Shown in pieces: positions 1 to 51,889 of a stretch of DNA of 64,000 nucleotides (position 1 is the stretch's first letter; each line of letters starts with the position of its first letter). The notes under the pieces were generated by a model. That model had not been told where the DNA came from. It made no database searches and was given only the letters and a program-made list of their open reading frames with translations. Source of the stretch: Paraescarpia echinospica (lineage: Eukaryota > Annelida > Polychaeta > Sabellida > Siboglinidae); contig JAHLWY010000215.1 of the NCBI GenBank assembly GCA_020002185.1, positions 62,001 through 126,000 of the forward strand. Reading direction: 5' to 3'. Made by a program: the position numbers and the translations under genes.

Positions 1-65
1 CTGTAGAACACAGGAAACAGTCTTTATAAAAACTAAGATAGTTAAGTTATTAAATAAATTCTGAT

Positions 66-1215
66 ATGGCGCCTTGCAAGCGGCACTTCATGGCAAAGCG
101 AAATGTGGTGTGCGATCACTGCCACGGCTGGGTGGATTTTGCCTTGTTCAGGTGTGGGAAGTTATGGGTAGAAACCAAGGAGGAGGGAATCACCTTTCAA
201 TGTTTGGGGTGTTGGAAGGTGAAGTGTCTGCAGAAAGAGATTGTTAGGTTGACAGGTATTGTGTAGAGGATGGATATGAGAATTAGGAAGGGGACAGGTG
301 GAATGGAGAGTGTCGACGGGGAGAGAGTTGGGAATACTGTGAGACTGAAGGAGCAGAGTAGAGGCAAGAAGACTGTGGAAAGGAGACTAACAAGAGGGAA
401 GGTGATTGGCGGAGAAGAAATTGGAGAATTGACGACAGAAAACGTGACAGGCGTGAACGTGACATGGGAGAAAGTGACCGTAGAGAAGGAGGGAGGGAAA
501 TGGGACGGGAGAGGAGAGGAGAGAAGAAAAGAACATGTGATGAGAGGAAACATGAAGGGACGAAAGGAAGTGAGAGTAAATGTGATAGAAGAGAAGTCTG
601 ACTGGAGGAAAGATGACAAGAGAGAAAGAGACAGAAAAGAATGGATCGGATGAGAATGTGACAGGAGAGAAGACGGCAGGGGGAAAAGACAACATTCAGA
701 CAGATGCAAACCGGAGAAGAAGCTAGTCTGAGTCAATGATTGAAGGGCAATGAGAAAAGAGAGGGTGTTCATGGGCAACTCTATTCTGAGAAAGACAGAT
801 ACGATGTCGTCGTTTGACTACCGTGGGCTAGGATAGAACACGTTACTGAAAGGGTAGAGAAGGTATTGGGGCATGGCAAGGGAGGGTTTATACTAGTACA
901 CGTAATGCAGACAGGGAGGGAATAACTGGGATAGTAAAGAAATACAGACTGTTAGTGAAGAAGCTAAAGAAGACAAGAGTTGAACAGATTATTCTATCAG
1001 GAATTTTGCCAGTAATGGGAGAAAGGGGGGATATATATATAGAAACTACAAGAGGATAACGATCAACGCAATAGTTGACCGGATGTGGGAAGAAGAGGAG
1101 GTGGGTTTCACAGATTGATGGGGATACTTTGTTGGGATGGAAGATATGTACATGACAGATGGCCTCCATTTAAGTGGAAGGGGGGCAGCACTTTTTTCGT
1201 GGAACCTGCTGCAAT
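66..1215 (+). pseudogene. CR1-type ORF1 remnant: cysteine-rich start plus esterase-like domain
   Basis: The first 66 codons hold two CxxC pairs (VCDHCHGW and FQCLGCW) about 30 residues apart, like the PHD/zinc-ribbon start of CR1 ORF1. A Lys/Arg/Glu-rich, low-complexity stretch follows to about 650. Between 830 and 1210, across frames, come LSGILPVMGERG (about 993-1030) and DGLHLSGRGA (from 1158). The latter resembles the last SGNH-hydrolase block, which supplies the catalytic Asp and His. In CR1 elements this esterase-like ORF1 is thought to bind RNA or lipid and help retrotransposition. Several frameshifts separate the pieces and no intact ORF remains. The minus-strand Ser/Pro-rich ORF over the same bases is a shadow of the purine-rich strand. 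Confidence 0.65.
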
Positions 1216-1344
1216 ATGTTGTCTGTGACAGGTTGCATCTATTTAAACTAGAATCGCAGGGAGGTCTCACAGAGAAGCCTGAAACTGGAGGCATAGATAA
1301 AGACTGCACAAATATATCCACAAAGAACAGTCTGGAAAACTGTT

Positions 1345-2810
1345 GTAAAGTTGGGTATAAATGTGTTTGTTTAATTGCAAGGAGTTTAGTAAACAAAATA
1401 AATTAACTAAACATTATGGTAGAAGATATTGACCCTCAAGTAATAGATATAACCGAATCATGGGCCACCACCGATATATCAGATGCCGAACTAACAGGCT
1501 ATGCAACGTTCAGGAAAGATATAATAGAAGAAGGGGAGGTGGATGTATTTTATATATTAAAAATACATCCAGCTGTATGAAATACAATTAAAAAGAGAAA
1601 CAGATTGCGAAGAAGCTGTTTGGTGTAACATTGTTACAGGAAACTCAACGGTAACGGTTGGGTTAGTTTATCAAAGTCCAAACATAAGCATAGAGGAGAA
1701 TGAAAAAGTACAAAACGCTATAAGGGAAGTAAGCAAACGGGACTGTATTATTATGGGGGTTTTAACCATGGGCATATACAATGGAAATCTCTACAGAGTA
1801 TGGGGAGTGAGGACCACAAGTGTTTAGTTTTAGTACAAGATAGTTTCCTTTCTCAACATCTGCTAGAACCAACCAGCGGTGAGAATGTGTTAAACATAGT
1901 ATTGTCCTCACAGAATGAATTAGTTAACAATGTCAAGATTTGTGAGCCACTGGGGAGTAGTGATGACAACTAGATACATTTACCATCAAATTAAAATCAG
2001 AAAGGAATAGGAAAAAAGCAGTACAGGGGAAATGTCCACAAAGGAAGATGTAAGGACATGAGGACATATTTAGCAAAGATAGACTTAAATAACTCACTGA
2101 ACACTAAAAGAGCAACAGGATGTTGGAACGTTTTAAAGAGTGAAATTGAGTACATCATCGATAAATACGTTCCCTTGAAAAAATAAGGGAAACGGTCCAA
2201 AAAGAAACACTTATCGAAAGAAGCCATTAAAAATAAGTACAAACAAATAATGTGGAAGTCACATAGACGTACTGGAAATGACGACGACTATAACATTTAT
2301 AAAGAAGCACTTAATCAAGCTACAGCTGAAACTAGAAATTCAAAGAGAAGCTATGAACAAAAAATAGCTTGTAATATAAAACGTGACAGCAAGACTTTGT
2401 TTGCGCATGTTAGAAGCAAACAGAAGTTCATGTATTTTAGTTCGGTGTTTACCAGAAACGATATTAATTCACTGCCAGTACCAGAGGCTAAGTTCAAGGA
2501 CCAGAATCAAACTATTTTCGACAGTTAATTGTAACTCCGGAAATGGTAGCTAAGAAAATAAGGGCTATGAAGGACAGTAAATCACCTGGAGTGGGTGGGA
2601 TTCCAAACTACTATTATAAATTGTAGAACAAGTTAGTATACCACTTGCAACTGTTTTCAATGTGTCATTAAAAGAGGGAGTGGTGCCTTTAAAAAAGAAA
2701 GAAGCAAACATTGTACCGTTATTTTAAAAAAAGTTCCAGAAAAAAGTGAGAGAACAATAGACCAGGGAGTTTTACATTGGTGATTTGCAATTTATTGGAA
2801 AGATTATTAA
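1345..2810 (+). pseudogene. CR1-type ORF2 remnant (endonuclease, linker and start of reverse transcriptase)
   Basis: An endonuclease start is readable from 1345 (ARSLVNKIN), followed by ITESWA (about 1450), whose Glu is the metal-binding residue of APE-like LINE endonucleases. The segment 2250-2528 reads as the basic linker between endonuclease and polymerase. At about 2545-2630 comes KKIRAMKDSKSPGVGGIP, the conserved start of the LINE polymerase (K..KSPG.DGIP in the family). Stops and shifts occur every 100-200 bases. The palm with the catalytic Asp pair is missing, so the copy is truncated as well as decayed. A minus-strand relative lies at 22946-25130. Confidence 0.7.
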
Positions 2811-2829
2811 AGATCATTAAAGATCACAT

Positions 2830-3760
2830 GTCAAATTGACCGACAGTTTAAAGATCATATTAATCGTAGTGGTTTTTTAAGTCTTTTAAGATGAGTGGTT
2901 TTATTAAGCGCATTTGCACAACATTTACCGATGTACAGGTTTTGTGATCCTTGTATTTATCTCTAGTCAGAAGTAAGTTGGAGTATTGCAGTGTTATCTG
3001 GAATCCCTGGAAACGTATGTTTATTTATAAAATGGAACGAGTTCAACAAAATTAATTGAATATATGTGTTACAAATCCAAAATACAGTACTCCTCTGATA
3101 GTTAGCCTGAACTTTGTCATCATTTTAGACTACCTTCCCTTCAACATCGCAGGCAAGTTACATATCTCATCGTTTTACACAAGTGTGTGTACTTCCACCT
3201 ACACCTTTTTTCTTGATGAATAGACTCGGACTGCCATTTCTATGTGTCGTGCGCCGAAAAATCTGTGCACATCCACCTTCACTCGTCCTATCTGGTAGGT
3301 GCTATCAAATGTCACTGTCCTTCACGATCTCTACGAAACTACACTACTTTTAGAGTTTCCAATGGCAGAATCAACATTAGAAGACACTCTGTTTTGAACA
3401 GATGTATGACTACTTTCAACACATTGCATTTGTGATTCAACATTTGATATATTTTCCGGAGCTGAAACCTTTAGATCTTTAATTCAAAAACATTTCAATG
3501 TGTAACGGATGTTTGCGTGGTGTATTCGACGTTGATATTGTGCGGTTTTTATGTACTTATTGTTATTATAGTTTTTACTGTTGTGTTATTGTTTTATTAT
3601 TTATATGCATTGTTTCAGTTATCAGTCCGGTTACTGGTTCCACTGGGCCTGTCGGAATCTGAGTAAATGCAATACAATGCATTACAATACAAAACAATAC
3701 AATACTATACAACACAATAAAATATGCCATGAAAATGTATGCAACACAAATGGTTGATGT
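2830..3760 (+). mobile_element. LINE 3' end (RT C-terminus and microsatellite tail)
   Basis: The bases from 2830 match 30940-31740 closely in the same orientation. They encode the end of a jockey/CR1-like polymerase: FKDHINRS, a GFIKRICTTFTDVQ stretch, EYCSVIWNPW (about 2970-3010) and the typical tail SLRNYTTFRVSNGRINIRRH (about 3330-3390). The element ends in an irregular AATAC microsatellite (about 3664-3720), a likely LINE 3' tail. Frames are broken. It starts abruptly inside the CR1-like copy at 1-2830, so it is a separate insertion or a duplication junction. The second copy at 30.4-31.7 kb shows that it travels with the GPCR segment. Confidence 0.7.
3201..3271. other. 71-bp insertion flanked by a 7-bp direct repeat
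   Basis: The otherwise matching copy at about 31.29-31.32 kb lacks these bases. The insertion is bounded by TCCACCT at 3194-3200 and 3272-3278, which looks like a target-site duplication. A related piece in the opposite orientation lies at about 4645-4705, sharing the CGGCGCACGGCACATAG / CTATGTGTCGTGCGCCG core. It has no coding content. It may be a fragment of a short mobile element. Confidence 0.55.
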
Positions 3761-3849
3761 GGTTGTCATGGTAATTTTTGCCTATACATCGTATTAGTTT
3801 GCCGAAAAAAATAAGATATTGGAATTTGATTATATATATACACGTGAAC

Positions 3850-5960
3850 GTCTCACTTGGGAAGACGCTTGAGAAGAATCTTGGGAAAGATAATGTCTGA
3901 CTATCAACAACAATTTTACTTTTTTAGAACATAGAAACAAACTGTTTAGTTGTTTTAAAGTTTCAATGTTAAAATGGAAATTTGTTAAGTATACGTGCAC
4001 CGAATTTCAGTGCAGCATGGCATTCTGTGTTTAGGTGAAGTAGTACTGGCCGCTGTTTGAAGCAGGACTAGTGAATGACCACTACCACGTTGTCTGAGCT
4101 TAAATGAAGGGCAAGATCAATGTAGCCACGAAGAGACATGCATATCTCTCCACTCGGAGTGTCGCAATCTGTTTTGTTCAGGTAGTTAATGGTCTGCATA
4201 TGGCGACTTCACAGAAGTTGTGAAGAAATTGGTGTTTTCTCTATCATGCTTCAAACTACTGGTGCTAACTGTTGAAACAATGATATATACAATTCTATTA
4301 CGACATCCAAATGGTAAACTTACACCTTTTTCCATTGTTTTCACTTTTATTCACCAAACACATTGACATTGTATGTTTGTCTTCGTCAGGCAACACGTTT
4401 CATGTTTGATAAACAATTTCTTTACCAATTAAATATATATATATATATATATATATGAATATATAAGTAAAATATGTAGTGCAGAAATGATGCCAAAGAA
4501 GGTAATAGTACGGCAAGCATTCAAACACACATTCTAAACTTATCTTTTATGTATTATTATACTCGGAGTAAGAAAAACAACGTACGTTGTTACGAAGGGT
4601 GGCGGATGTCGTAATGAATATCACCTCCAGGTGTTGACAGAAATCAGATTTTTCGGCGCACGGCACATAGAAATGGCAATCCGAGTCTATTCATCACGAA
4701 AAACGCACATATCTTGCCATTCAGATTGCCAAAGACATATTTCTCCAACATTTCACGCTGTCGTGTGACCTGAAAATTTAGACTCTGGAGAAATCAGAAA
4801 GTATTAGTTGTAGACTTACATATCCTTCGAAGCCCAGTGCTGATGTTTAATAAACATACACAAACATTCTGCTACATCTCACGGTTTTGATATAATGTCA
4901 AATGGAAAGTGTTAAATAAAGATATTGTTCAGTTGAAACTATGAGGTTTTCATGTTTATTACGTTTATTGGAACGTTCTAAAACGTAACCATTGTTTTCA
5001 CAAATATTGACCACTTATATTGACATTGTATATCTTGCACATATACTAAGCAAGATATTTGGTAAGCAATAGTGTTTTTGGATATGTATTAAGAAATATA
5101 GCGAATAAGGTTTGATATAGTTTGTGTAACGTGTGAAAACGTGTCAAGTAGAAAACAGGCTATCATTTGATGTTGAGTATTAGTTATGAAAACGAGAATA
5201 AGCCTTTAGGGTGTATGATTTTTCAAAGGTAATTATTTTGGTAGCATTCAGATAGCTTTATAAACTTTCATTTTATATATTTTCAAAATAAAACAGTGTA
5301 CTTTGTTACCAAAGGTGACGGGTGTCGTTATACACATCACCAAAAGTGTTAGAACAAATATAACTTCTGGTGGACGCCACACAAAAGTGGTTGAAGTAAT
5401 GTTCACGATATTTGTGGCCTGTCACCTACACTATGTTATCGATCTGAAAACAAAAGAAATGTTACATATAGACAACATTTGTATTTTGTCGTTTGATTTA
5501 TCCAGTTTGTAAAAACACTTTTGCCGATATGTATATATATATTGAATGAGTTTATTGAGTAAAATTATATACGTGATGAGTATAAATAACAATAGCGTCA
5601 TATATATATAGAGTTACTTCCAATGGGGTCCTCCTACAAAATAATAAATTATGATAATGAAAATAGATACAATAATAAATAAATATTATACAATAAGTTG
5701 AGACAACATAAAAAGGTAAGCTACTAAAAATATGTCAATTGTTTAGAGATTATCTGCACACGTGATACAATTAAAATTGTTACGTTTATAAAAACTAATT
5801 TGAAAATGTTAAGATGTAAGGTAGTAAGTTATTTCCTGAGAAAGCAGACGAGTAATAAAGGATACTTTACGTGTTTTTAAAAATGTTTTTGCTATTATCG
5901 TTCTTTCATAGCAAAATAAACATTACATCATCAAGTGCACATAAAGTGTGATAATATGAT
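3850..5960. other. AT-rich non-coding stretch with an old direct duplication
   Basis: I see no supportable gene. Two diverged direct copies lie about 680-730 bp apart: about 4345-4640 and about 5005-5375. They share ATTGACATTGTAT, the pattern around GGTAATA..GGCAAGCATTCA, and GTTACGAAGGGTGGCGG against GTTACCAAAGGTGACGG. The ORF at 5303-5512 lies in the second copy. Its counterpart in the first copy is not kept open, so I do not call it a gene. Confidence 0.5.
4435..4457. repeat. (AT)n microsatellite
   Basis: An uninterrupted run of AT dinucleotides. It is one of many in the window and has no other visible role. Confidence 0.9.
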
Positions 5961-7171
5961 AAAATATAGTTTATACTAAACGCCTTTCAGCTGAGGTATC
6001 CAATTCGTCGTCCGCTCATTTCACGTTTCTGTCGTGGACTATTGTAGTCGGAGAAACTAAGACGATAGTGGTGAATTTTAATGTCGTTGACAGACAGGAC
6101 ATAGTGTTACTTTGTTAATTAAATTGAGTTAATTTAATTAATTAATTAACAATTTGAATTAACCCATGCCTGCCACCAGCCGAGTTGAGGACACCCTTTT
6201 TGTATGGGAAACTAAGACTTTAATTATAATAATTTAATTATATATACATACACTCCTCAATATTGAGAGAAGCCTTTTGCAGTGCAGTATGATTCGACCT
6301 TAACAGTTTTCCAAATTGAACATTGCATAACCTCTACTCACCAATGTTCGTTGAACCAAGGCGTAATTATGAAATCCCTGCAGTATTCTTCATTGGCACA
6401 ATCAAGTCTTGCACGCAGGGTTGCTGCACAGATCAAAACACGAACATCAATCACGCTGTGATTGATTATTTTCCACCTGCATCAGCTGAAAAGCCTTCAG
6501 GTTGTGTGCTGTACGTTCAATATTCTGACTGCGAACTGCGCGAGTAGACAGACGTTCAGGTGTCGTCATTGTATTTACAAAGTTGGTGGACTTCATTGGC
6601 GTTTATTTGCACGTTTCGTAGCACCGCTCAAACACAGACACTTGCATAAATGTCGTGTATCCGTGATCAGCCGACTGTTTGGCTTCGCGAGGAATGGTCG
6701 TTCGTCGTGGTGTCGGCGAAACGGGGAAGTTAGTGAAGATAATGTCAACTCGAAAGAACGTCACGCATGCACAAGTACAGTAGCACTATTCGATCGTAGA
6801 AGACAATTGCTGTGCACTTTACACTATACTGTGCGAACATATACGTGCACAAATATCTACAATGACTACACCAAGCTATTATTCAGGGTGGACATACCCG
6901 TGCTACAACCAGTACTGACTCCGAAAAGTGCAAGTCCAGATGTAACCTGCGGCACGGTATGAAGAATGAACAACGCAAACAATGATAATTTCTTTGCTCA
7001 GCCTGCGTCGCATATATTTGAAATAGCACATATCGCATAAAATAAGATGCAAAACAATTGTACTGATCATGACAATAACTTGATCTGTAATACACGTCTT
7101 TATATTCGAATAATATAAATTTAACTTTGTATTTCAGCACATGTTTTTACTGTTACTGGTCATCGACAAGC
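5960..7171 (+). promoter_or_regulatory. Conserved upstream region of GPCR copy A
   Basis: This 1.2-kb block is repeated before GPCR copy D (about 46330-47726), and its proximal end also lies before the broken copy (about 31900-32253). Shared landmarks include AACGCCTTTCAGCTGAGG (5980 and 46340), the TGAACCAAGGCGTAATTATGAAA stretch (split here as TGAACCAAGGCG + TAATTATGAAA; 6353 and 46911) and TTGATTATTTTCCACCTGCA (about 6460 and 47021). Open frames here (6323-6547, 6462-6962) are not kept in the other copies, so the region is best read as promoter plus 5' UTR or intron. A pyrimidine-rich TTTGTATTTCAG at 7126-7137 is a good 3' splice site just before the coding start. No TATA box or core promoter can be fixed by eye. 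Confidence 0.5.
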
Positions 7172-8203
7172 ATGGATTCGCTCATAACGCCAAATTTTCG
7201 GCAGCGAGGTTTGAACGAGTCTTTCATCAACTCCACTTTGCTACCTGCTGGTATGAATGTCAGCGAGGATGCGAATAGTATCTCTACAAAGATAATTCCA
7301 ATACAGAGTTTCGTCACCTTCCTTATGTGTGTGTTTGGTATACCAGGCAACCTGCTCGTCCTCGCCGTGTACGCCTGCAAGATGACGTCATCCACCAGAG
7401 TGTACATGTTTGCTTTGGCCGTCGTTGACTTGGACGTTTGCGTTACTGGAATCGTCCTGACAAGAGTCGCGCTTGACATCTCGAGCATAGAGTTTATTAC
7501 ATTCAATGTGCATACCTCGATAGTGTTCTCCATGTTTCTTCTGGCGTTCGTGTCGATGGAACGCCTGCTGGCGGTGCGGCGTCCTCACACGTTCAGTCTG
7601 TGTACACGACGGGCGAAGCGGGCGCTGGTCGTCATCGCTCTAACTGCCGCTCTCAGTGCTACGGTCTTAACAGTGGCACGGATCAGCAAAAACAGGCTGT
7701 TGCTTCGTGTGTTTTCCGCGGTTGTTATAGTAACAAACGTCTTGGTCATGATCGTTTGCTACTCACTAATGGCACTGACGATGCTGTTAAAAGTAAGATC
7801 TGCTCACAGGAATGTTGGTGTCGCAAGCATGACACCTGTTCCGGGACCATCATCAGTTACTACTATCACGTTTGAACTCACAAAGGGTACAGCCACTGGT
7901 AATATCACTACCAGTAAAAAACACCCAGTGTTTGGTGGCAAAGCGACAACTGTGAAACAGACTAATGCATACAAAGGTGTGTCATTATTATTTATAATTA
8001 CAGTAATATTTTTAGCCTGCTGGATTCCACAATGGTTGGGAGATGTTGGTTTGCGAGTCCCAGCAGATATAAAACGACTGTTTATTCTTAACTCCGTCGT
8101 CAATCCGTTCATCTACAGCGCTGTAAGTGGTATGTTCCGTGATGACATCAGACAGTTCTACAGACAGGTTTGTTCCAAGTTTGCAACATGTCGCCATTGC
8201 TAG
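7172..8203 (+). CDS. Rhodopsin-like (class A) G-protein-coupled receptor, copy A
   Basis: An intact 343-residue seven-helix receptor, uninterrupted by introns. I start at ATG 7172 because copies A, C and D all align from MDSLI. The in-frame ATG at 7127 lies before a likely splice acceptor. The N-terminus has three N-glycosylation sequons (N15, N20, N29). Helix landmarks are GN at 59-60 (TM1), LAVVD ending at D86 (TM2), ERL at 130-132 in place of DRY (TM3), CYSLM at 196-200 (TM5), FLACWIP at 280-286 (TM6) and NPFIY at 311-315 (TM7). The third inner loop is Thr/Ser-rich (about 207-262). The tail ends CRHC, which could be palmitoylated. There is no Cys at the usual TM3 position and none in the very short second outer loop, so the standard disulphide is missing. 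TM4 also lacks its usual Trp. The plasma-membrane location is inferred and the ligand unknown. A peptide or small-molecule receptor is possible, but I see no subfamily signature. Confidence 0.93.
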   Translation: MDSLITPNFRQRGLNESFINSTLLPAGMNVSEDANSISTKIIPIQSFVTFLMCVFGIPGNLLVLAVYACKMTSSTRVYMFALAVVDLDVCVTGIVLTRVALDISSIEFITFNVHTSIVFSMFLLAFVSMERLLAVRRPHTFSLCTRRAKRALVVIALTAALSATVLTVARISKNRLLLRVFSAVVIVTNVLVMIVCYSLMALTMLLKVRSAHRNVGVASMTPVPGPSSVTTITFELTKGTATGNITTSKKHPVFGGKATTVKQTNAYKGVSLLFIITVIFLACWIPQWLGDVGLRVPADIKRLFILNSVVNPFIYSAVSGMFRDDIRQFYRQVCSKFATCRHC

Positions 8204-11419: not shown

Positions 11420-11422
11420 TAA

Positions 11423-11990
11423 TAGGCCATGGGCCAGATATGCCCCTCGTGCACCCCCCCCACAACTCTACCAACCCATGTTTTTTTGAAGCTTTGGGGT
11501 CCCTTGAAAATGATTTCAAGTGGTAACAGTGAAAAGGTTGGGTCTCACTACCCATTTCCAATCTATCTTGGATGGTACCCTGAAATATCGTATTTCTCAT
11601 CAATGTCGCGTGGTATTTAATCACCCACACCACAATCGTCATTGTATAGTCATATATATCTCAATATGTACTTGTAATATGTCATATTGAAGTGATCTGG
11701 TGATAATTATAATAGCATCCAATATATATATATATATATACTATTATGGCATGTGCCCTAATTAGCATAGAATAACTATACCCCATTCTCACTCGTGACC
11801 GCATAGATGACATCATTATGTTTGTCAAATATATCAATTTCCTTTGATCCTATGGCCTCTTTAAGATTAAAATAATAATGCATGACACTCTACAGCATCA
11901 TATATTTAATTTGATACCAGAATTGTCTTTCTATCATTACATATGGATTATATATAATGTTTCAACGATAACCGTAGTGTCGCGGATCAA
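11423..11990 (+). repeat. Left terminal inverted repeat of the DNA transposon
   Basis: It pairs with 15432-16001. Matching blocks include GGGTCTCACTACCCATTTCC, CACCCACACCACAATCGTCA, CCCCATTCTCACTCGTGACC and, at the inner end, CCGTAGTGTCGCGGATCAA. The ORFs at 11358-11642 and 11429-11620 fall inside and are not genes. Confidence 0.9.
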
Positions 11991-12431
11991 CAGGCGTAAC
12001 CCAGGGCATTTTTTATTATTACACACTATACTCCACCAGCAATGGATTGTTTAAAATGTAATGAAGAAGTGACTATAATATTGTTGTTTTATAAGTCATC
12101 TACGTTCTATTGCAGTATCTAGGTACATGTTTGCAGCTGGAATACTATTTTTCTTACATGTTTCATTTAAGGTTTATATTATATCATTTAAGTCTCATAT
12201 TATATTATTTAAGTTTCAGTTGCAGCTTATACGAATACTTGAGGTCAACTTATCAGATATCAATAAGTTAAACTGTTAGTTAAGTTGGATAATGATAAAT
12301 TATAAGCTTTACCTGCTTTTACCTGCTGATATTGCATTCCTACCTTTGTTTGTATTTATTATTAAAACGAAAACGAACAAGTGATCAAACTGTCAAACCT
12401 ACTTGTATAGTTCACATAAAGGGCTGAAAAT

Positions 12432-14997
12432 ATGGAGAACTTCAACTCATGTCTGGTATGTGGGATGCAGAGAAGAAGTTGGAGAACTTGTAGGAGATCA
12501 AAGAAAAGAGACTTTCAGAACATCCAACTTCAACCCACAGGATGGAGGACACGTGCAAGCTCATCCCCAACACAGTGATGGACTATCATGGCTTCCATTG
12601 GAAATGCTACAAACGTTTCATCATGAATATGGACAGGCTGACGTCCACCTCATCACCACCATCTGATGCCTCCACACCCCAACGTACGAGCCGCATAACT
12701 TCCACGGAAGGTGATAAAATCATCTTCAAGTCGGACTGTGTTTTCTCTGGATCAGAGGGTTGTAAGACGGTAAAAGTGAAAGGCACATGGACCAGTCAAG
12801 GCATGAGTCAGTTCGAATTTGATGAATGTAAGACTGTGGCGACGATGGCATAAATAAAACAGGATGAGAAGTTCCTCACAAGAATACGATGTTTGCTTGT
12901 GAAGCCAAGTTCCACAAGAATTGCCGCATGAACTATACGCAAAAACCAGAGAAATGGCGAAGTACAGATGAAGAGGCACGTGTTGACCAGTTCAACTTGA
13001 TGGAAGCCCATGAAAAAGGATTTGACATAGTGGAGAAGGATGTCCTGCATGATCGGAAGATGGTGAAATTGGCTGACCTGCAACAAGTGTACATATCCAA
13101 TCTAGAGAATACAGAGCATAGTAATCATGCCGGAGTGAGAAATTAAAACACAAACTTGAAACCCATGAACCCTTCAAAGGCAGTCTGTCCTTCTGTGATA
13201 TGGAGAAATTCCAGTCAAGCGTAGTCTATGTTTCACAGATTGACATCAACACAGCCGTGAAACATGCCTTCCAGTTGGGATCAACTGATGTTATCAAGAC
13301 CACTGGTTTATCCAAGATGGGTTTGCTGAAGCACCTGATCTTAAATGGCTACCAACTCCCCGTGATTGTGACATAATTGACACTATTGTACCAAACACAC
13401 TCCAAAATTTGTTATGTTATGTCATACCTGGGATGGCAGCTCCCACATCATCCCGCACACAGAGACTTGTTCTGTCAATTGGTCAGGACATCTGCCAGGC
13501 AACAACCAATGGATCGTGGAAGCTGCCAAAACACATCTTCATGAGCATGTCCATGCTTCATATGTTCAAATATGAAAAACTCGTAATTCACTTGAATAGA
13601 ACGGCACACTGTGAAAGCTACTCCTTTTCATTGGAGCTGGAGACATCGCTAGCTGAACCTGTTATGCAGTCGCCCACTCGTCTCTCCAACCAGATTGTCA
13701 GGTCACCACCAGGACCAACGGTATTCAATTCATAATTTTTTTAATTTCGAACAGCTTCTGAATGATCTCACAGGAAAAGGATAGGATCAGTTCACACAGC
13801 TCATGGCATCATGTTACAGGAAGTTGGCAGTGATGATCATTCTGCGGAATCTGGTGACTGTCCTGAAATACCATCTCAAACAAGGAAAAAGGAAAGGTCG
13901 CTGAACCTGAAGGAGTCGGCCACACTAGAAAGAAGCTGATTCTGAAAGGAGAGGCAACCAAGAGTCCACCTGATTGGAAACCATCCATGTCCAATGGTGA
14001 AAACAAGTGTCAGTTCATCAAACTACTTCTGAAGCTGTGGCAGAGCGATGGATACGCATCAAAACTGCATGGAAGACAAGTGATCTTCATTTATGAGGAG
14101 AATGCCACTCTGCTGACTTCCAATGATGGCCGGACGATAGTAACCCATGAACTACCCCTTCTGAAGTCATCACAGGAAACCGACTCAAGAGTTATTATCT
14201 ATGTTAATTACGCTAGGAGTAGGAATTACGGATTCGTTCGTGTGAAGAGCCCAGATTCAGACATCTTCTTCGTTCTTCTGCACTATGCTGCATCAATTGG
14301 AGACATCACCATCTTGTTTGACACTGGTGTAGGAAATAAGCAAAGATTGATTGATGTCAGCAAACTAGGAGTTGATCTCGGCCAAGACAAATGTACGGCT
14401 TTGGTGGTTCTGTATGCTTTCAGTAGATGTGACAGCACTAGTGCTTTCTGAGGGATTGGCAAACTCAAACCAGTGAAACCTCTACTGAATATTCCTAAAT
14501 ACATTCATGTACTCAAGAAGCTGGGAGATACATGGGACCTACCTGAAGAAAGGATTGATGAGCTGGACAACTTCACTTGTGCTGCGTATGGTAGAGCATC
14601 AAAGGTGTCAAAAGTTGATGACTTCAGGCTAATTCGTATCAATGAGCTGTGTGCCAAGGATAACCGTGTTATTCCTTCAGTTGATATTGACATGGCCAAT
14701 CTACCATCATGCAATCGCAGTCTCACCCAGCATGTCAGAAGAGTAAACTATCAAGTTTTCATATGGAAGAGAGCACATATTCCTGAGCCTGACGGCCCCA
14801 AACTGAGCAGAAACCATAGCTGGAACATCGGCAATGGAAGCATTGAACCACTCTGGTATGATGAAGATGTGCTGCCACATAAACTGGCTGATATAGCTCA
14901 GGTAGATCCCCACCAGACTGATAGTGATGACGAATCTGACATGAACATGTCTGATGGGATGGAACTATGTGTTGACAGTGACAGTGATTATGACTGA
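12432..14997 (+). pseudogene. Transposon-encoded protein: zinc-binding N-terminus, FEN1/XPG-like C-terminus (broken)
   Basis: One long gene is split by at least five frameshifts and several stops. The start at 12432 reads MENFNSCLVCGM, a CxxC. Next come FHWKCYKRF (about 12594-12620) and FACEAKFHKNCRMNYTQKP (12892-12948), which are C..H/HxxCxxxY zinc-binding-like blocks. Then RLVLSIGQDICQ (about 13463-13500) and FEQLLNDLTGKG followed, one frame over, by SVHTAHGIMLQE (about 13748-13825). The best frame is 13987-14997, with one TGA at 14449-14451: QETDSRV, VKSPDSDIFFVLLHY, then FSRCDSTSAF, stop, GIGKLKP. Acidic pairs followed by CD.T...F.GIGK resemble the catalytic and helix-hairpin part of FEN1/XPG nucleases. 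The tail is acidic (DSDDESD). It is the only gene in the element. I recognise no classical DDE motif spacing. Confidence 0.78.
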
Positions 14998-14999
14998 GC

Positions 15000-15431
15000 A
15001 TCAAAATGTGACTAATTGGTTAAGTAACTATAAATGTTTGGAAAGTGTCCATACATCAACCTAGATACTGTATGTCATTGCATACAATTAAGATGTGAAT
15101 AACTTTTTGGCATCTAACTACATTTTGTTTGATCAATGGCTAGCATCTAAATGAATGTCATACATACGTAATTCGCTTTAAACTGAATTATCATATTTTG
15201 AGATACTGGCGTTCGATTTGTCTGTGTTGTTGACATTTGGCACATCTTAATTCACGAGTTTTGGATATCACATTAAGCTAATATACATGTACATTATATG
15301 AAATATGTAGTGCTTTGTTTTATGCATCTAAAATTACTATGGCGTAAATGTATACCTGAAAACACACACATAATGTTGACAGTTTTGACATGTATGCGAT
15401 CCATTTCCATGGTTATCTTCGCTTTCGCCAC
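15000..15431. other. 3' internal region of the DNA transposon
   Basis: AT-rich and non-coding, between the gene's TGA at 14995-14997 and the right inverted repeat. No strong polyadenylation hexamer was fixed by eye. Confidence 0.5.
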
Positions 15432-16001
15432 TTGATCCGCGACACTACGGTTATCTTTGAAGCATCATATCTAATCCATTTGTAATGACAGAAAGACAAT
15501 TATGGTACCAAATGAAAGATATGATGCTGCAGAGTGTTACAAATGATTATTTTGATCTTAAAAAGGCCATGGGATCAAGATAAATTGATATATTTGACAA
15601 AAATAATGATGTCATCTATGCGGTCACGAGTGAGAATGGGGTATAGTCATTCTATGCTAATTAGGGCACATGCCATAATATTATATATTTATTGAATGCT
15701 ATTATAATTATTATAATGATCAGCAGATGAAAACCTTCAATTTGATATATTACAAGTACATATTGAGATATATATGACAATACAATGACGATTGTGGTGT
15801 GGGTGATTAAATACCACGCGACATTGATGAGAAATACGATATTTTAGGGTACCATCCAAGATAGGTTGGAAATGGGTAGTGAGACCCAACCTTTTCACTG
15901 TTACCACTTCAAATCATCTTCATGGGACCCCAAAGCTTAAAAAAACATGGGTTGGTAGAGCTGTGGGGGGTGCAGGAGGGGCATATCTGGCCCATGGCCT
16001 A
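15432..16001 (-). repeat. Right terminal inverted repeat of the DNA transposon
   Basis: An inverted copy of 11423-11990. The outer end reads GGGGCATATCTGGCCCATGG then CCTA at 16001, directly followed by TAA. Confidence 0.9.
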
Positions 16002-16009
16002 TAATAAAT

Positions 16010-16780: not shown

Positions 16781-18622
16781 TCATGGCATCTCGCGGTTCA
16801 AGTGACGCACAGCCTGCGGATAAAACTGCGGATAAAACTGCGGATAAAAACTATTTTTAAGTCTAGTGGTCCTTGTCTTAATACTTCTATAGCGCTTGCC
16901 AGAGGGAAGAAGTTCAAAGAGATGGTTGGCTGGGTGGGTAGTATCCCGTACAATGCTCTTGGATTTTCGCGCACAGCGAGCATGGTAAATAGATTCTATG
17001 GATGGCAACTCGCGCCCAATGATTCTAGATGCGCCCTTCACGATAACTTCTAGCCGTTGTTTCTTCTCCGGCCAAACCACACTACAATCGAGAAAGAGAG
17101 GATACTTTCAATGATTGCGCGGTAGAATCGTATCATAATCTCCTGAGCAATGCCGAATGTCCTGAGCTGCCTCAGGAAGAACAGGCGTTGTTGTGCCTTT
17201 TTTGTAATGCACAGTGTGTTTGTGCACTAGCTGAGATCGTTTGAAATTGTTGTTCCAAGGAATCTAAAAGATTCAACCTGCTGGACCTCCACGCCATTTA
17301 TCGAAAATCAACAATCATTTCTTTAGTCTTTGAAACGTTCAATTCGAGATTGTTATTCGCACACCAGCCAACCATTCTCTGAACTTCCACCCTGTATGGC
17401 GCCTCATCCGCATTCTCAATGCAGCCCCCACAGTAGTGTCATCGGAAAACTTGATCACATTTACCGATTGGTCCACGGAGACACAGTCATTTGTGAAGAT
17501 AGTAAACAGGAAGGGGGATAGCACACAACCTTGTGGGGCACCTGTATTTAGGATAAGAGATCTGGGGATAGAGTTGTTGACTCTGACAGATTGAGGCCTG
17601 TGAAGAAGAAAGTTAAGGACCCATTGACACATGGCAGGATGTACATTCAACAATGAAAGTTTATCGAACAGCTTGAATGGGATGATAGTGTTAAATGCTG
17701 AGCTGAAGTCAATGAACAGGATCCTGGCATAGGTTCCTGGCCTGTCTAGGTGCTTCAGGGTGTGATGCAGACCTAAAGCTACCGCATCGTCTACTGATCT
17801 GTTTGCTTGATATGCAAACTGGTGCGAGTCCAGGAGGCCGTCGGTGGCCGACTTCAGTTACTTGAGTACTATGCGCTCGAACACTTTCATGGCGACTGAG
17901 GTCATTGCCACTGGACGGTAGTCGTTCAGCCCGGTGATGTTGGACTTCTTGGGAATGGGTATGATAGTGGAAGTTTTGAAGCAGACTGGAACTCTGCACT
18001 GCTGGAGAGAGGAGTTGTAGATGTCTGTAAACACCGCAGAGCGTTGGTTGGCGCAGTTCTTCAGGGTAGATGTGGAGATGTTGTCTGGACCCGAAGCCTT
18101 CCGCGTGCTCTGTCTCCTGAACAGTTTCCTCACCTCAGCTTCCTGGACTATGAAGGGCGGAGACAGAGAGGTACCTGATGGAAGTAGACGCTGCTCTGGT
18201 GAATAGTTACGCTTGTCGAATCTGCTGTAAAATTCGTTCAGCTGATCAGGGAATGAGGGGTCACTGCTGTTGGTGGCCGCTGCGCGTTCCTTGTACTGTG
18301 TAATCTGCCGCAGGCCATTCCAGACAGATCTGGTGTTGTTGGAAGCGAACTGGTCCTCAAGTTTGTGTTTGTATATTAATTTGGCCTTCTTGACCGCCTT
18401 CTGCGCTTCGCACTTAGCTCTCCTGAATTCTTCCCTGCTGCTGCTGATGAACGACGCGTTCTTCGCCGCCAGTTTCTGCTGGATGTCCCTGGTGAACCAA
18501 GGTTTGTCGTTGCCATACAGGGTGACAGTCTTTGTCTCCGTGCACAGCTCCTCACACAAGTTGATGTAGGATGTCACGGTGTCAGCGTACACGTCTAGGT
18601 CTGGACATGCCTCTTTAAACAT
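16781..18622 (-). pseudogene. LINE reverse-transcriptase half, Rex1/L2-like
   Basis: 18622-17858 carries the linker and the start of the polymerase: TRKASGPDNIS, then IIPIPKKSNITGLNDYRPVA and MTSVAMKVFERI. 17999-17709 in another frame covers the finger/palm join. 17653-17339 holds APQGCVLSPFLFTIF (motif B) and IKFSDDTTV (motif C, normally FADD; the Ala is Ser here, the Asp pair is kept). 17080-16781 is the C-terminus (SRIIGRELPSIESI, LLPSGKRYRSIKTRTTRLKN). Three or more shifts, and a repeated FYPQ-FYPQ-FYPQ near the end (three ATAAAACTGCGG units at 16819-16850), show decay. Confidence 0.82.
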
Positions 18623-18679
18623 GTCCCAATCTGAGCACTCCAGGCATCCACGAAGAGCTGCAGTCGACTCGTCGGTCTG

Positions 18680-19665
18680 CTTCTTGACAGTCTTCTTTCA
18701 TGGCTTCAAAGTTTTCAGTTTCTGTCGGTACGTGGGGATGAGGACGACCGTTGCGTGATCGGACTCTCCGAGGGGAACCCTGGTGGTGGCACGGTACGCA
18801 TCCTTAAAGACAGTGTTGCGGTGATCCAGGACCTTGCTATTGCGTGTGGCACAGTCTACGTGCTGCTTGTACCTGGGCAGTACCTTCTTCAAATTTGTGT
18901 GATTAAAGTCACCCAGAATGATGACTACGCTGTCAGGATAGGTCGATTCTGCTGCCACCACCTGAGCAGCCAACTGGCTGACTGCCTTGGTAGCACTGGC
19001 ATCAGCGGGGATGTAAACACCCAACAGCACGACCGAAGAGAACTCTCTCGGGAAATAGAACGGCTTGCAATTGATAGTTAGAGTTTCCAGTTCACGGGAA
19101 CACGAAGAAGAGACAAGCTGAGTGTCATTGCACCACCGCTGATTCACAAGAAAGCACACGCCACCACCCCGCTGCTTGTCCGTCAGTTCGCTCGATCGGT
19201 CCGCTCTAAACAGAGCATGATCAAGGGGTGTCACTGCGGCGTCAGGGGTCGTGGCTTTTAACCACGTTTCCGTAAAACACAGTATAGAGGCGTCTCTTAT
19301 TTCTCGTTTGTAAGTCAACAGGTGAAGAAGTTCGTCTGTTTTGTTCCTCAGTGATTTGCTAAAACGATAGCAGGGAGTGGTGGTCGAAGGTTGCGCCGGC
19401 GAAATCTACAGAGTGCGCCCCCGCGTCTACCCCGCTTGCGTGTGCGGCTTGAGGCGTTGTGTTGTGTATAACCCGTGTTGTCAACAGAAAAAGTGTCCTC
19501 CAAGGTGAAGTTTGGTTTGTACTCACAGTTCATGGATTCCCTGATTCTCAGTAGATCTTCACTATCATACTTATATAGATATATAGACTTAAACATTAGA
19601 ACAATAATCGAAAACGTACACACAATCATACACCGCCACAACGTGTCGCCATGCACCGGCGCCAT
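18680..19665 (-). pseudogene. LINE endonuclease half (APE-type), Rex1/L2-like
   Basis: The first part (19348-19665) starts MAPVHGDTLWR with a hydrophobic stretch at residues 12-26, then a basic RKRGRRGG stretch, ending PLPAIVLANH. One frameshift then leads into 18698-19318, which holds the APE endonuclease: CFTETWL (metal-binding Glu), RGGGVCFLV, VIILGDFNH (Asp/Asn of the active site) and GESDHATVV (the catalytic SDH near the end). All key residues of the fold are present. This domain nicks the target DNA to prime reverse transcription. An ATG at 19318 is only the first in-frame Met after the break. Confidence 0.82.
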
Positions 19666-26460: not shown

Positions 26461-28668
26461 CTAGTTTTGTATTAACGATATGATTTGTTTGCTTAGAAGC
26501 AAGGCTTCCTTGATATGCAAAATTCTTCTGTTGGGTTCCTTGTCTACAATTTTCACTCCCTCCCAGTCTATGACGTGGTTTTCAGTTGTCGTATGGTCTG
26601 TAAGGGCGGATTTATTGATGGTAGACATCAACTTTTTTTTCGCTCCTTGTGTATTTCTCAGTGTTCCTCCAGTCTTGTTTTGAGTAGTCTTCCTGTCTCC
26701 CCAATGTACTCAGCACCACAATTCTTGCACGGTGTTTGGTACACCAGTTCGCCCTGTTCTTCTAGCTGTACTTTGTCCTTGGGATGTACCAACAGGTGCC
26801 TGAGGGTGGTGTGGGGACGCATGGCTGTTGCTACTCCATACTTCTTCAGTACTCGATGTACTCTCTCTGAGACCCCCTCTATGTATGGGATGACTACTTG
26901 GCTCCGATAGTTGTTGTCCTTAGTCTTTTTGTTGGTCTTTTTCTTCTTACTGCTATCTGTCACCTGTCATCTGTGCCCACGACGGATAGCTACATACTCT
27001 TAGAGTTCCTCTCAGGTGTTCCACCTCTTCTTTCTTGTCCCCCTCCTCCCAAGTTATTGTCTCACACCTGTTCATAAGGGTTCTGACAACTCCCAACTTC
27101 TGATGTTTGGGGTGGTGGGACGCAAAGTTCAGGTATTGGTCAGTGTGCGTCTTCTTCCTGTACACTGTGGATTTCACACTGCCATCTTCCTTTCTGGTGA
27201 ACTTTGCATCCAAGAAGGGCATGCTGTTGTTCTCTTCATCTTCCAGCGTAAAAACGGTGCTACATGTGGGGTCTACAGTGTTCATGTGTTGTTGTAATTT
27301 CTTTGCCTTTCCTGTGTGTACCAGGAAAATTACATCGTCCACATATCGCTTCCAGTTTCTTGGTTGGCAATCGACTGGTGCTGTGGCTATGATTTTCTGC
27401 TCCAGGTCCTCCATGTACAGGTTCACAACAATGGGGGGTACTGGACTGCCCATGGCTACCCCAAACGTCTGCTGGTAAATTTATCCGCGAAATCTGAAGT
27501 ATGTCGTCTCCAAGACAAATTTCAACAACTCCATGATGTCGTCTACGTTTAGGTTTGTTCTCTTCTTTATTGTCTTGTCAATCTCTAGTCTTTTTCTGAT
27601 GATTTCGCAAGCTTCTCTGATCGGGGTCTTCGTGAACAGTGACACAACATCATATGACACAAATGATTCTCCTTCTTCCATTCTCAGCTTTGTCATTTCT
27701 TTCACCAATTCTTGTGAATTTTCTGTATGGTGTTCTGTTTTTCCCAACAAGTGGTTGTAGTATGTTGGCCAATTCTCTGGATACTCTGTATGCTATTGTC
27801 TGTGTGTAGTCGACAATTGGTCTGAGTGGCACCTTCTCCTTGTGGATTTTTGGTGATCCATACATCCGTGGTACTTTTTCTAGCGCAGGATACAAGTACC
27901 AGTACTGGTCTTTGGTGATCTTCCCGTATTTCTCCAAGGAATTTACCATTCTGATGAGTTCTGCCTTATATTTCTTGGTCGGGTCCTTCTTTAACATCTC
28001 ATATGTCGCTTCGTCACTTAGCATTTCTTTCATGTTGTCTGGTATTCTTTCCATGATGACTGTGGCTTTTCCCTTGTCCGCAGGGAGTATGGTGGTGGAC
28101 TTCTCCTTCTGTAGCTCTTTTAAAGTTGTTCTTTCTTGTCTGGTTAGGTTCTGTTTGGGAACTTTTGTTGATTTAAGAACTCCCGCGATGTCTGCACGAA
28201 GTTTATCTTTTTGTTCTTGTGGTAGGCTCCATGTCGCGTGTTCTGCCGCTATGACGAACCCCTCGGTCGTTACTTTTTCTGGCGTTACCGCGTAATTTAG
28301 TCCCTTCGCTAATATCTTATTCTGGTCCCCGGACAGTTTGTTTTTCGACAGGTTTATCACCCACCTTTTTAGCTGGGTTCCGGTAAGGTCAGTTTCGTTT
28401 GTTCTGTCTCTCTTCGCTTTCAAGCGCCGAATTTTTTTTTTTGATGACGCCTTTTTGTTTTCTCGTGTGTACTCTCACTGACATGCGCGATGTGGCGCGT
28501 GACGTTTTGTTGTTCTTCCCTTGACAACGAAGTAAACACCATCGTTTCTAGGGCGCGTTTCTTCTCTTTAAACGTGTCCAATTTGTTGTTTATGACACGT
28601 ATTCTCTCTCTCACTGCTTCCTTCCTGGCCTTGTCCACTATTCGCCTCGCATACGTCGTGTTTATCAA
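26461..28668 (-). mobile_element. Penelope-like element: RT and GIY-YIG endonuclease, nearly complete
   Basis: Read on the minus strand: a basic N-terminus (28668-28420), then LPADKGKATVIMERIPDNM (about 28060-28110), PRMYGSPKIHKEKVPLRPIV (about 27810-27870), FVSYDVVSLFTKTPI (motif A), VAMGSPVPPIVVNLYMEDL (motif B), WKRYVDDVIFLV (motif C with YVDD) and NSMPFLDAKFTRKEDGS. A GIY-YIG domain follows (VYQTPCKNCGAEYIGETGRL, about 26670-26730), then ENHVIDWEGVKIV and a TAG at 26461. The order RT then GIY-YIG defines the canonical Penelope group. There are at least four frameshifts (near 28420, 27700, 26955 and 26655) and one in-frame stop at 27481. It is dead, but every domain is readable. Confidence 0.92.
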
Positions 28669-31899: not shown

Positions 31900-32253
31900 G
31901 TTGTGCACTTTACTCTAAACTGTACGAACCTATACGTGCAAAATATTTACAATGAGTACACTAAGCTAATATTAATTGTGGACAAACCGTGCTACAACCA
32001 GCACTGACTGCGATAAGTGCAAGTCCAGACGTAACCTGCGGCACGGTGTGAAGAATGAACGTAGACAACGCATATATTTGAAATAGCACATACTGCATAA
32101 AATTAGATGCAGAAAAACATGTTCTGATATCGACAATATCGATTTATCTGTAATACACGGTTCCCGATTCAAATAATATCAATTTAACTATGTAACTGTG
32201 TCATTTTTTTGTACTTCTGCACATGTTTTAATTTTTAGTGGTCATCGACAAAT
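31900..32253 (+). promoter_or_regulatory. Upstream remnant of GPCR copy C with a splice-acceptor-like site
   Basis: Matches the last ~350 bp before copies A and D. A pyrimidine-rich TTTTAATTTTTAG ends at 32238, 15 bases before the ATG. The distal upstream block seen in A and D is missing here, so the copy was probably cut from its promoter. Confidence 0.5.
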
Positions 32254-32822
32254 ATGGATTCGCTCATCACGCCAAGTTTTCAGCAGCAAGGTTTGAACGA
32301 CTCTTTCATCAACTCCACTTTGCTACCTGTTGGTATGAATGTCAGCGAGGATGCGAATAGTTTCTCTACAAAGGTAATTCAAATACAGAGTTTCGCCACC
32401 TTCCTTATGTGTATGTTTGGTGTACCAGACAACCTGCTCGTCCTCGCCGTGTACGCCTGCAAGATGACGTCATCCACCAGAGTGTACATGTTTGCTTTGG
32501 CCGTCGTTGATTTGGACATTTGCGCTACCGGAAACATCCTGACAATAGTCGTGCTTCACTTCACCAGCATATTCATTATTTCATTCAGCATGCGTACGTC
32601 GGTCGTATACTCCGCGTTTCTTCTGGCGTTTGTGTCAATAGAACGCCTGCTGGCAGTGCGGCGTCCTCACACGTTCCGTCGAGTACACGACGGGCGAAGC
32701 GGGTGCTGGTCGTCATCGCTCTTACTGCCGCTCTCGTTGCTGCAGCCTTAACAGTGGCAAGAATCAGCAAAAACAGGCTGTTGCATAGTGTATTTTCCGC
32801 GGTTCTTAAATTAACAAACGTT
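32254..32822 (+). pseudogene. GPCR copy C, frameshifted and truncated
   Basis: Starts MDSLITPSFQQ and stays open through TM1 (GVPDNLLVL; the usual Gly before N is Asp here), TM2 (LAVVDLD) and TM3 (VSIERLLAVRRPHTF). A 1-base loss at about 32680 shifts the frame. TM4 and the start of TM5 continue in another frame (RRAKRVLVVIALTAAL, 32691 on). Similarity to A and D stops near 32820, before the middle of TM5, and unrelated AT-rich DNA follows. The last two helices are missing, so this copy cannot make a receptor. Confidence 0.9.
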
Positions 32823-42420: not shown

Positions 42421-42504
42421 AGAGGGACCGTCGGGAAAATTAAATAAATTATCTTGTTAACGATAATTTCAAGTTCAGAGGGCTTATTTTGCATACATAT
42501 GTAC

Positions 42505-43040
42505 ACAAATGCATACATACATACATACATACATACATACATACATACATACATACATACATACATACATACATACATACATACATACATACATACATAC
42601 ATACATACATACATACATACATACATACATACGTACATACGTACATACGTACATACGTACATATGTGCATATGTGCATATGTGCATATGTGCATACGTAC
42701 ATGCGTACATGTGTGCATACATGCATACGTGCATGCATATATACACACATGCATACATGCATGCATGCATGCATGCACGCGTACACGCATACACACATAC
42801 ACGCATACACGCATACACGCATACACGCATACACGCGTACACGCGTACACGCGTACACGCGTACACGCGTACACTCATACACGCATACACGAATACATAC
42901 ATACATACATAGATACATACATACATACATACATACATACATACATACATACATACATACATACATACATACATACATACATACATACATACATACATAC
43001 ATACATACGTACGTACATACATACATACATACATACATAT
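42505..43040. repeat. Long (ACAT)n microsatellite with ordered variant units
   Basis: About 535 bp of tetranucleotides: pure CATA, then CGTA-CATA alternation, then TATGTGCA, GCATGCAT and ACGCATAC/ACGCGTAC blocks, then pure CATA again. All six frames stay open because the unit period avoids stops in several frames, so the long Met-Tyr-Val-Cys and Thr-Tyr-Ile-His ORFs are artefacts. The related array is at 57725-58350. Confidence 0.97.
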
Positions 43041-44294: not shown

Positions 44295-44311
44295 ATATTT
44301 GGTTATAATTT

Positions 44312-45323
44312 GCTATGGCAAATCCTGAAGCTATACGGCATACCAAGCAAATATATAGACATTTTCAAATCGCTATACCGAAACACCAACTGCTGCATCA
44401 AGACCAATGATGGCTACACAGGCATTTTCGATTTAGAGACAGGTGTACGTCAAGGTTGCATCCTGTCCCCTTTCCTCCTTGTTGTTGTTATCGACTTCAT
44501 CATGAGGAAAACGATGAAAGATCCGAACTTTGGTATTAAATGGATAAATAATAGGTTGACAGACCTTGACTTTGCCGATGATATTGCATTGCTCAGCCAC
44601 ACGTCGGAGATCCTACAAGAGATGACCAATACTTTAAACGAAAATGGAAAGATGGTCGGATTACGAATCAGCTATGGGAAGACAAAAATATTGTCAGCTG
44701 GTGATGACCCCGTCGAGAACTTCCCTTACCTCGGAAGCTACATCTCTACGAAACGCGACGCGGAAGTAGATGTACGAGCAAGGATAGGCAAGGCATCAGC
44801 AGTGTTCCAAAGACTACGTCCAATATGGTCCAGTAACACCATCAGAAAGGACATAAAACTACGTCTTTACATGTCAATCGTAATACCAACAGCGATATAT
44901 GCCTGTGAAACGTGGAAGAATACGGTGAGGATATAAAAAAAACTAGATATATTTCACCAACGATGTCTCCGGTTCATATTGGGCATATCGTGGACAGAAC
45001 ACATCACCAATGAAGAAGTGATGAGGAGGGCAGGTCTGGATAGCCTGCATTATATAGTTAAGTCTCGACGACGAAGACTAGCGGGACATATCCTACACTT
45101 ACCAAGAGAGAGAACTGCACATGTAGCAATGGAATGGGTTCCTGAAGGTGGAAACAGAAGGAGAGGAAGGCCGACTAAGACCTGGCGCAAGACGTTTAAA
45201 GAAGATCTGGCAGAAATGGAAATCACCTGGAATGAGGCCAAAGAAATTTCGAAAGACCGTAGCAGATGGAGAAAGCTCGTCGCCCGATGTTCCGAAAGGA
45301 ACAGGAGGAACTAAGTAAGTAAG
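44312..45323 (+). mobile_element. 5'-truncated LINE with (TAAG)n tail and 8-bp target duplication
   Basis: The insertion splits the block that is continuous at 30.09-30.13 kb. TATAATTT lies on both sides (44304-44311 and 45324-45331). The 3' end is CTAAGTAAGTAAG. Being 5'-truncated with a short repeat tail and a target duplication is the mark of target-primed reverse transcription. Only two shifts or stops break its ORF, so it is young. Confidence 0.92.
44313..45314 (+). pseudogene. LINE reverse transcriptase, C-terminal half
   Basis: Begins inside the palm: LWQILKLYGIPSKYIDIFKS, then TGVRQGCILSPFLLVVVIDF (motif B), LTDLDFADDIALLS (motif C, about 44560-44600), LRISYGKTKILSAG, and FPYLGSYISTKRDAEVDVRA. 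After a stop at 44934-44936 the C-terminus reads ITNEEVMRRAGL, RRRRLAGHILHLPRER, GNRRRGRPTKTWRKTFKEDL and DRSRWRKLVARC to the TAA at 45312. The GH..R and GRP..TWR blocks mark a common invertebrate LINE type also seen at 58567-59840. The exact clade is not fixed by eye. Confidence 0.88.
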
Positions 45324-47711: not shown

Positions 47712-47726
47712 TGGTCATCGACAAAC

Positions 47727-48752
47727 ATGGATTCGCTCATCTCGCCAAGTTTTCAGCAGGAAGGTTTGAACGTCTCTTTCATCAACTCCACTTTGCATCC
47801 TGTTGGTATGAATGTCAACGAGGATGCGAATAGTTTCTCCACCAAGGTAATTGACGTAGAGAGTTTCGCCACCTTCCTTATGTATGTGTTTGGTATACCA
47901 GGCAACCTGCTCATCCTTGCCGTGTACGCCTGCAAGATGACGTCATCCATCAGAGTATACATATTTGCTTTGGCCGTCGCTGATTTGGACGTTTGCGTTA
48001 GCGGAATGATCCTGACAAGATTCCCGCTCGACTTCATCAGCATACTGATTATTTCGTTCATCATGCGTACGTCGGCCGTGTTCTCCGCGTGTCTTCTGAC
48101 GTTCGTGTCGATAGAACGCCTGCTGGCGGTGAGGCGTCCTCACACGTTCAGTCTGAGTACACGACGGGCGAAGCGGGCGCTGGTCGTCAACGCTCTTACT
48201 GCCGCTCTCAGTGCTACGGTCCTAACAGTGGCACGAATCATCAAAAACAGGCTGTTGCTTAGTGTGTTTTCAGCGGTTCTTATATTAACAAACGTCTTGG
48301 TCATGATTGTTTGCTACTCGCTAATGGCACTGACGATGCTGATGAAAGTTAGATCTGCTCACAGGAATGTTGGCGGCCCAAGTATGACACCTGTTCCGGG
48401 ACCTGTTACTACTATCACGTATGAACTCACAAAGGGTACAGCCACTGGTAATATCACTACCAGTAAACAACGCCCAGAACTTGGTGGCAAAGCGACAACT
48501 TTGAAACAGACTAATGCATACAAAGGTGTGTCATTATTATTTATAATTACAGTAGTATTTTTAGCATGTTGGACACCGCGATGGCTGGCAGATGTTGGTT
48601 TTCGAGTTCCGGGAGATTTACAACGAGTGTTTTTCCTTAATTCCGTCGTCAATCCGTTCATCTACAGCGCCGTGGGCAGAATGTTTCGCGACGACTTCGG
48701 ACAGTTCTACAGACAGATTTGTTCCAAGTTGGCAACATGTCGCCATTGCTAG
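47727..48752 (+). CDS. Rhodopsin-like (class A) G-protein-coupled receptor, copy D
   Basis: An intact 341-residue receptor with an intronless coding region and about 80% identity to copy A by eye. N-terminal sequons are at N15 and N20. Landmarks are GIPGNLL (TM1, N60), LAVADLD (TM2, D86), SIERLLAVRRPH (E130-R131, in place of DRY), CYSLMAL (TM5), FLACWTP (TM6) and NPFIY (TM7). The tail ends CRHC. The third inner loop lost two residues relative to A (VPGP--VTTI). TM5, TM6 and TM7 are nearly unchanged between copies. Changes crowd into residues 91-125 (end of TM2, first outer loop, TM3) and the N-terminus, the likely ligand-facing parts. Like copy A it has no TM3 or ECL2 cysteine. Function is probably signalling at the cell surface; the ligand is unknown. 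Confidence 0.94.
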   Translation: MDSLISPSFQQEGLNVSFINSTLHPVGMNVNEDANSFSTKVIDVESFATFLMYVFGIPGNLLILAVYACKMTSSIRVYIFALAVADLDVCVSGMILTRFPLDFISILIISFIMRTSAVFSACLLTFVSIERLLAVRRPHTFSLSTRRAKRALVVNALTAALSATVLTVARIIKNRLLLSVFSAVLILTNVLVMIVCYSLMALTMLMKVRSAHRNVGGPSMTPVPGPVTTITYELTKGTATGNITTSKQRPELGGKATTLKQTNAYKGVSLLFIITVVFLACWTPRWLADVGFRVPGDLQRVFFLNSVVNPFIYSAVGRMFRDDFGQFYRQICSKLATCRHC

Positions 48753-51690: not shown

Positions 51691-51889
51691 CCAACAGTGA
51701 CTGCTGTGGATGCATCAATAGATTAAGTAAGTTGTTCTAATTGCTAAAATAAATAAATACTTATGTTAAAATACAACTTAAATATGTTCTTTGTGATGTA
51801 AAAATATATCAAAATATATAAAGATGAATAGAGAATAATATTAATACGGTCATTGAAACCGTGTACACATTATATAAAAATGTGGGCTT

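Follow-up and report, generated by a model that had tools for sequence, protein, structure and literature searches.

DDE transposases bind the ends of their element, cut there and join these ends to a staggered target, and repair then yields a target site duplication. Autonomous transposons also have internal-deletion derivatives, such as the Ds-, KP- and MITE-like elements. In the AcademX lineage of Academ transposons, the encoded nuclease is of the XPG type. PMC10045372 reports duplications of 3 or 4 bp for AcademX and of 9 or 10 bp for AcademH, and links this difference to the encoded nuclease and helicase; according to PMC10294476, bivalves hold Academ elements in abundance, and the mean length of these elements is 5565 bp. 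Our literature search for Academ elements with XPG returned an unrelated match only. Here we describe a transposon at positions 11423-16001 of a 64,000-nucleotide stretch of the annelid Paraescarpia echinospica (the window; assembly GCA_020002185.1, 1.08 Gb; contig JAHLWY010000215.1, here C212, positions 62,001 to 126,000 of the forward strand). A reading made from the window's letters alone had taken it for a complete, single-gene element. It is almost certainly a non-autonomous internal-deletion derivative of a larger transposon with terminal inverted repeats (TIRs), most likely of the AcademX lineage, whose protein combines zinc fingers, a DDE transposase and a FEN1/XPG-like nuclease.

That this is a DNA transposon with exact inverted ends, as the sequence-only reading had it, is borne out. 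The terminal sequences TAGGCCATGGGCCAGATATG / CATATCTGGCCCATGGCCTA sit precisely at both coordinates, and the 20-bp ends are exact. The left TIR (11423-11990, + strand) measures 568 bp and the right one (15432-16001, - strand) 570 bp, close to the 570 bp first estimated; the two agree at 519 of 557 aligned bases (93.2%), and their alignment scores 407, against a maximum of 14 over 50 single-base shuffles.

A search of the host genome with the window element gave at least 124 match rows, at least 13 of which cover query positions 1-4579; setting aside the window copy leaves at least 12 further whole matches. These counts are lower bounds, as 35 of 338 candidates were scored. The remaining rows consist of arms matching each other and of partial copies, some of which belong to an undeleted type of element. 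Twenty derivative copies were fetched; they had been chosen for matching the window element best and therefore do not sample the undeleted type. Apart from one segmental pair at 1.4%, they diverge from each other by 3.1-9.6%; measured against the majority of the remaining copies, each differs by 2.6-6.3%. The flanks of one copy, L002, are 98.7% and 99.3% identical to those of the window copy over 1143 and 1475 aligned bases, which makes it a segmental copy of the same insertion and not an independent one. Three pieces on the contig itself (C212 73423-78001, 178005-180987 and 182141-186742) point to at least one segmental duplication containing the window insertion, and the third is 99% identical to the window copy across its 3' two thirds.

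The undeleted type came to light in a host genome search with the protein P0074, which gave at least 84 matches (71 of 1597 candidates scored), one of them on contig C1 directly upstream of a piece matching the window element from element position 2506. Five regions of this type were fetched, L041 to L045. The first four contain transposons with ends like those of the window element, 6803, 5586, 6227 and 6582 bp long; L042 and L043 have suffered additional deletions, L041 has an eroded right end, and the fifth, L045, is only a shorter piece (3208 bp). The window element aligns to L041, L042 and L044 up to its position 2502-2504 and resumes at 2506, these copies having 2144, 2243 and 2178 extra bp in between; L043 has lost the 3' breakpoint. 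The breakpoints read ..GGCCACACT and GGAGAGAAGCTG.., and alignment to these three copies places the junction at window positions 13924-13928. Read by eye, it is an out-of-frame fusion (..ESATLERS stop): the upstream frame meets a TGA three codons past the fusion, which leaves the nuclease half out of frame. All 20 fetched derivative copies have the junction. The stretch of 2.14-2.24 kb absent from the window element holds the second D and the E of the DDE triad as well as the nuclease's first two acidic motifs. Thus the window copy, earlier proposed as a good type element, is a deletion derivative, and undeleted copies of 5.6-6.8 kb are present in the same genome.

A 2001-bp query from the missing middle gave at least 99 match rows in the host genome (40 of 50 candidates scored), at least 43 of which span 550 bp or more with 84-100% identity; the undeleted type is thus a repeat family in its own right. 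The other rows are short, and many reflect tandem repetition at two places: at G000:C11:49924280-49925015 short stretches from a presumed intron recur in tandem about 67 bp apart, and at G000:C7:57343781-57345829 short coding stretches recur about 77 bp apart, each in or beside an undeleted-type copy. At L042 5476-5712 the matches to the relatives' protein break and the frame changes, which suggests that the transposase gene of the undeleted copies holds an intron of roughly 200-235 bp.

Two further lesions are shared by the derivative copies. The first catalytic Asp lies at window positions 13733-13750 (+), where the undeleted L041-L044 read GAT (FDNFDQ) and L045 has no match; the derivative copies read TAT in 16 of 20, TTT in three and TCT in one, and none reads GAT. 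A little downstream, at 13776-13786 (+), all 20 carry a frameshifting insertion of 5 bp, or 7 bp in some (L003, for instance, combines TAT with the 7-bp form). It is absent from L041, L042 and L044, while L043 has 3 bp there, in frame. The DDE triad is therefore missing from the window copy, as first noted, but the family as such does not lack it: the deletion took away the second D together with the E, and the first D is mutated in all 20 copies examined. Frameshifts in the N-terminal part were considered as proof that this frame is dead throughout, and rejected, since the copies differ (L009 aligns in one frame); we accordingly claim only the insertion and the Asp change as shared. Variants common to three or more derivative copies spread evenly over codon positions, at 0.044-0.048 per site by codon position against 0.041-0.050 in non-coding parts.

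What remains of the gene in the window is incomplete and split across several frames. With the relatives P0001, P0008 and P0004 as queries, tblastn recognises a 5' transposase remnant in several frames at 12365-13927 (+), reaching from the zinc-binding N-terminus as far as the first strand of the RNase H-like fold. It is followed at 13928-14997 (+) by the C-terminal half of the FEN1/XPG-like nuclease, which keeps the E/E, D/D and last D motifs but has lost the first two acidic ones. The Cys/His zinc-binding-like blocks and the FEN1/XPG-like C-terminus were thus rightly recognised from the letters; the complete single gene was not, given the broken frames, an in-frame TGA within the nuclease remnant (14449-14451, +) and the 2.14-2.24 kb lost relative to the undeleted copies. 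Six open pieces of the window gave a sub-threshold leucine-zipper match in Pfam (E 0.096) and nothing else, and a 376-amino-acid (aa) piece of L010 gave no match there; a phmmer search of that piece against PDB sequences had as its best hit Exo1 (E 0.57), with the alignment falling on the GCD..RGIG motif. No PDB sequence matched a profile built from 42 relatives at E 10 or better, no Rfam family matched within the window at gathering scores, and no relative was found in collections of genome contigs and viral contigs at the sensitivity used.

The relatives supply what the window copy lacks. In the long ones, about 650 aa between the zinc-binding N-terminus and the FEN1/XPG-like end make up a DDE-type fold and the first half of the nuclease; in their alignment the D, D and E are conserved, and so are the nuclease acidic residues. 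Undeleted relatives have this DDE-like core in the same genome and in other animals alike. A model of the DDE region found no Foldseek match at E 0.001 or better. In a fold comparison it resembled Hermes (hAT), RAG1 and Transib, which fill the first 17 rows and likewise have a long helical insertion in an RNase H-like DDE core; these differ in showing only 6-9% identity and moderate Z scores (8.7 and less), and in their duplication lengths, 8 bp for hAT and 5 bp for Transib. The C-terminal domain of the relative P0016 has the FEN1/Exo1/XPG fold, at 8-13% identity to solved nucleases. Unlike those nucleases, the domain is part of a transposon protein in the relatives, and the window element keeps its second half only, out of frame. 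The only recurring Pfam echo is DUF6589, seen in 4 of 20 relatives at E 0.01 or better (best 0.0016) and, when 40 were scanned, in eight with E no worse than 0.1 (best 0.00042); in both rows with scores shown the match falls under the curated cut-off, and a literature search for DUF6589 gave no match. One protein of 894 aa, P0005, joins regions 1-507 and 897-1255 of P0002 across a different and smaller gap, and is perhaps another deletion derivative or an artefact of gene prediction.

The length of the target site duplication was determined from many insertions, as the sequence-only reading had proposed. Both flanks were readable in 18 of 25 copies (L001-L020 and L041-L045), 14 of them derivative and four undeleted; we omitted L002 as a copy, L013, L014, L016, L018 and L019, in which an end was not found, and L041 with its eroded right end. 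A 3-bp duplication is exact in 13 of the 18 insertions (10 of 14 derivative, three of four undeleted), and exact flank matches at 1, 2, 4, 5, 6 and 7 bp occur in 10, 1, 0, 1, 0 and 0. Shuffling the right flanks among elements over 10,000 rounds gave a mean of 1.6 and a maximum of 7 exact 3-bp matches. Among the failures, L004, L006, L007 and L045 have one mismatch each, and L008 reads CTA/CCT. The TAA that flanks the window copy at 11420-11422 and 16002-16004 is a duplication but not a fixed target: the exact targets (TAA, GGT, TGT, TTT, ATT, TAG, ATA, AAT and TAT) vary among insertions, and TAA is merely the site of this copy.

How do these features compare with Academ? Judged by them, the undeleted parent most likely belongs to the AcademX lineage, because the 3-bp duplication and the encoded nuclease agree with what is reported for AcademX; the earlier suggestion of an Academ relative stands. 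Undeleted relatives and the derivative share 3-bp duplications (none of the 18 insertions has one of 4 bp) and terminal inverted repeats, and the undeleted relatives encode both a DDD/E transposase and an XPG-type nuclease. The 9-10 bp duplications of AcademH are not seen here. When sets of 6, 20 and 40 relatives, other than the host's undeleted copies, were scanned with Pfam, the families listed included no helicase. Unlike an autonomous AcademX, the window element encodes neither a full transposase nor a full nuclease, lacking the transposase core and half of the nuclease. It resembles the Ds-, KP- and MITE-like derivatives: its intact ends are those of an undeleted relative of the same genome and it has lost internal sequence, and its dispersed copies share one junction and have decayed coding remnants. 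It differs from them in having lost about a third and in its long TIRs (~570 bp).

Could the window element still be complete, a one-gene member of some new superfamily that transposes with a PIN/FEN1-fold nuclease instead of a DDE transposase? The window copy does have FEN1-like motifs and no DDE triad, and its long exact ends and duplication show that it moved. This reading has next to no probability given the DDE-like core of the undeleted relatives, in the same genome and beyond, and a nuclease remnant that is out of frame with the N-terminus and has lost its first two acidic motifs; nothing was found to support a PIN-fold domain acting in place of a transposase. By analogy, the derivative family might have kept a useful product, for example a truncated N-terminal protein that would bind the ends and repress the transposase, much as KP elements repress the P element transposase. 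The zinc-binding part is still recognisable, and some of the seven copies printed have N-terminal open stretches of at least 200 aa. We regard such a role as very improbable, as shared variants do not shun codon positions 1 and 2 and the frameshift upstream of the junction is found in every one of the 20 copies.

The identity of the parent leaves more room. It might belong to a superfamily other than Academ, so far unnamed, in which a nuclease domain accompanies a RAG/hAT-like DDE core: no Academ reference sequence entered the comparison, and DUF6589, the sole recurring Pfam echo, is weak. The duplications of 3-4 bp with an encoded nuclease reported for AcademX (PMC10045372), and the reported abundance in bivalves and mean of 5565 bp for Academ (PMC10294476), make this unlikely. 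Somewhat less doubtful, and offered tentatively, is a broader proposal: the parent would represent a lineage in which one polypeptide unites a FEN1-like flap nuclease with a RAG1/hAT-like DDE core, the nuclease cutting flaps or hairpins made by the DDE core, and DUF6589 would be the same transposase family across other eukaryotes. That lineage may or may not be the AcademX of Repbase.

We favour the non-autonomous derivative because of the 2.14-2.24 kb loss, the out-of-frame fusion, the lost first Asp and the shared frameshift. The transposase core and half of the nuclease were lost before the derivative multiplied. In the simplest history, a single defective master that retained the long inverted repeats would have been the source of the derivative copies, with undeleted relatives supplying the transposase that cut and pasted it in trans. 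The proteins of these relatives would bind, cut and join the derivative's intact inverted repeats, while the FEN1-like nuclease may trim flaps or open or process strand intermediates. The present copies would then have decayed neutrally.

The window holds other repeats and candidate genes. Open frames at 7091-8203, 32239-32751 and 47712-48752 (all +), the middle one shorter, have translations that by eye resemble paralogous class A G-protein-coupled receptors, and are perhaps a local cluster of host receptors. Fragments resembling retroelement reverse transcriptase or endonuclease, also by eye, lie at 17339-19405 (-), 26953-28474 (-), 44295-44936 (+), 51207-51722 (-), 58960-59667 (+) and 62517-63002 (-); that at 26953-28474 is perhaps Penelope-like. 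Long tandem arrays of CATACATA and TACA occupy 42492-43039 and 57705-58352.

The apparently complete element is thus a fairly ordinary passenger and not a new kind of transposon. What looked like a transposon without a DDE transposase becomes a well-documented deletion derivative, and a false lead for nuclease-driven transposition is removed. Undeleted copies and relatives together supply a domain map (zinc fingers, a DDE core with a helical insertion and a FEN1-like nuclease) that could serve for asking why some transposons carry a flap nuclease, and the analysis also hints at the nature of DUF6589.
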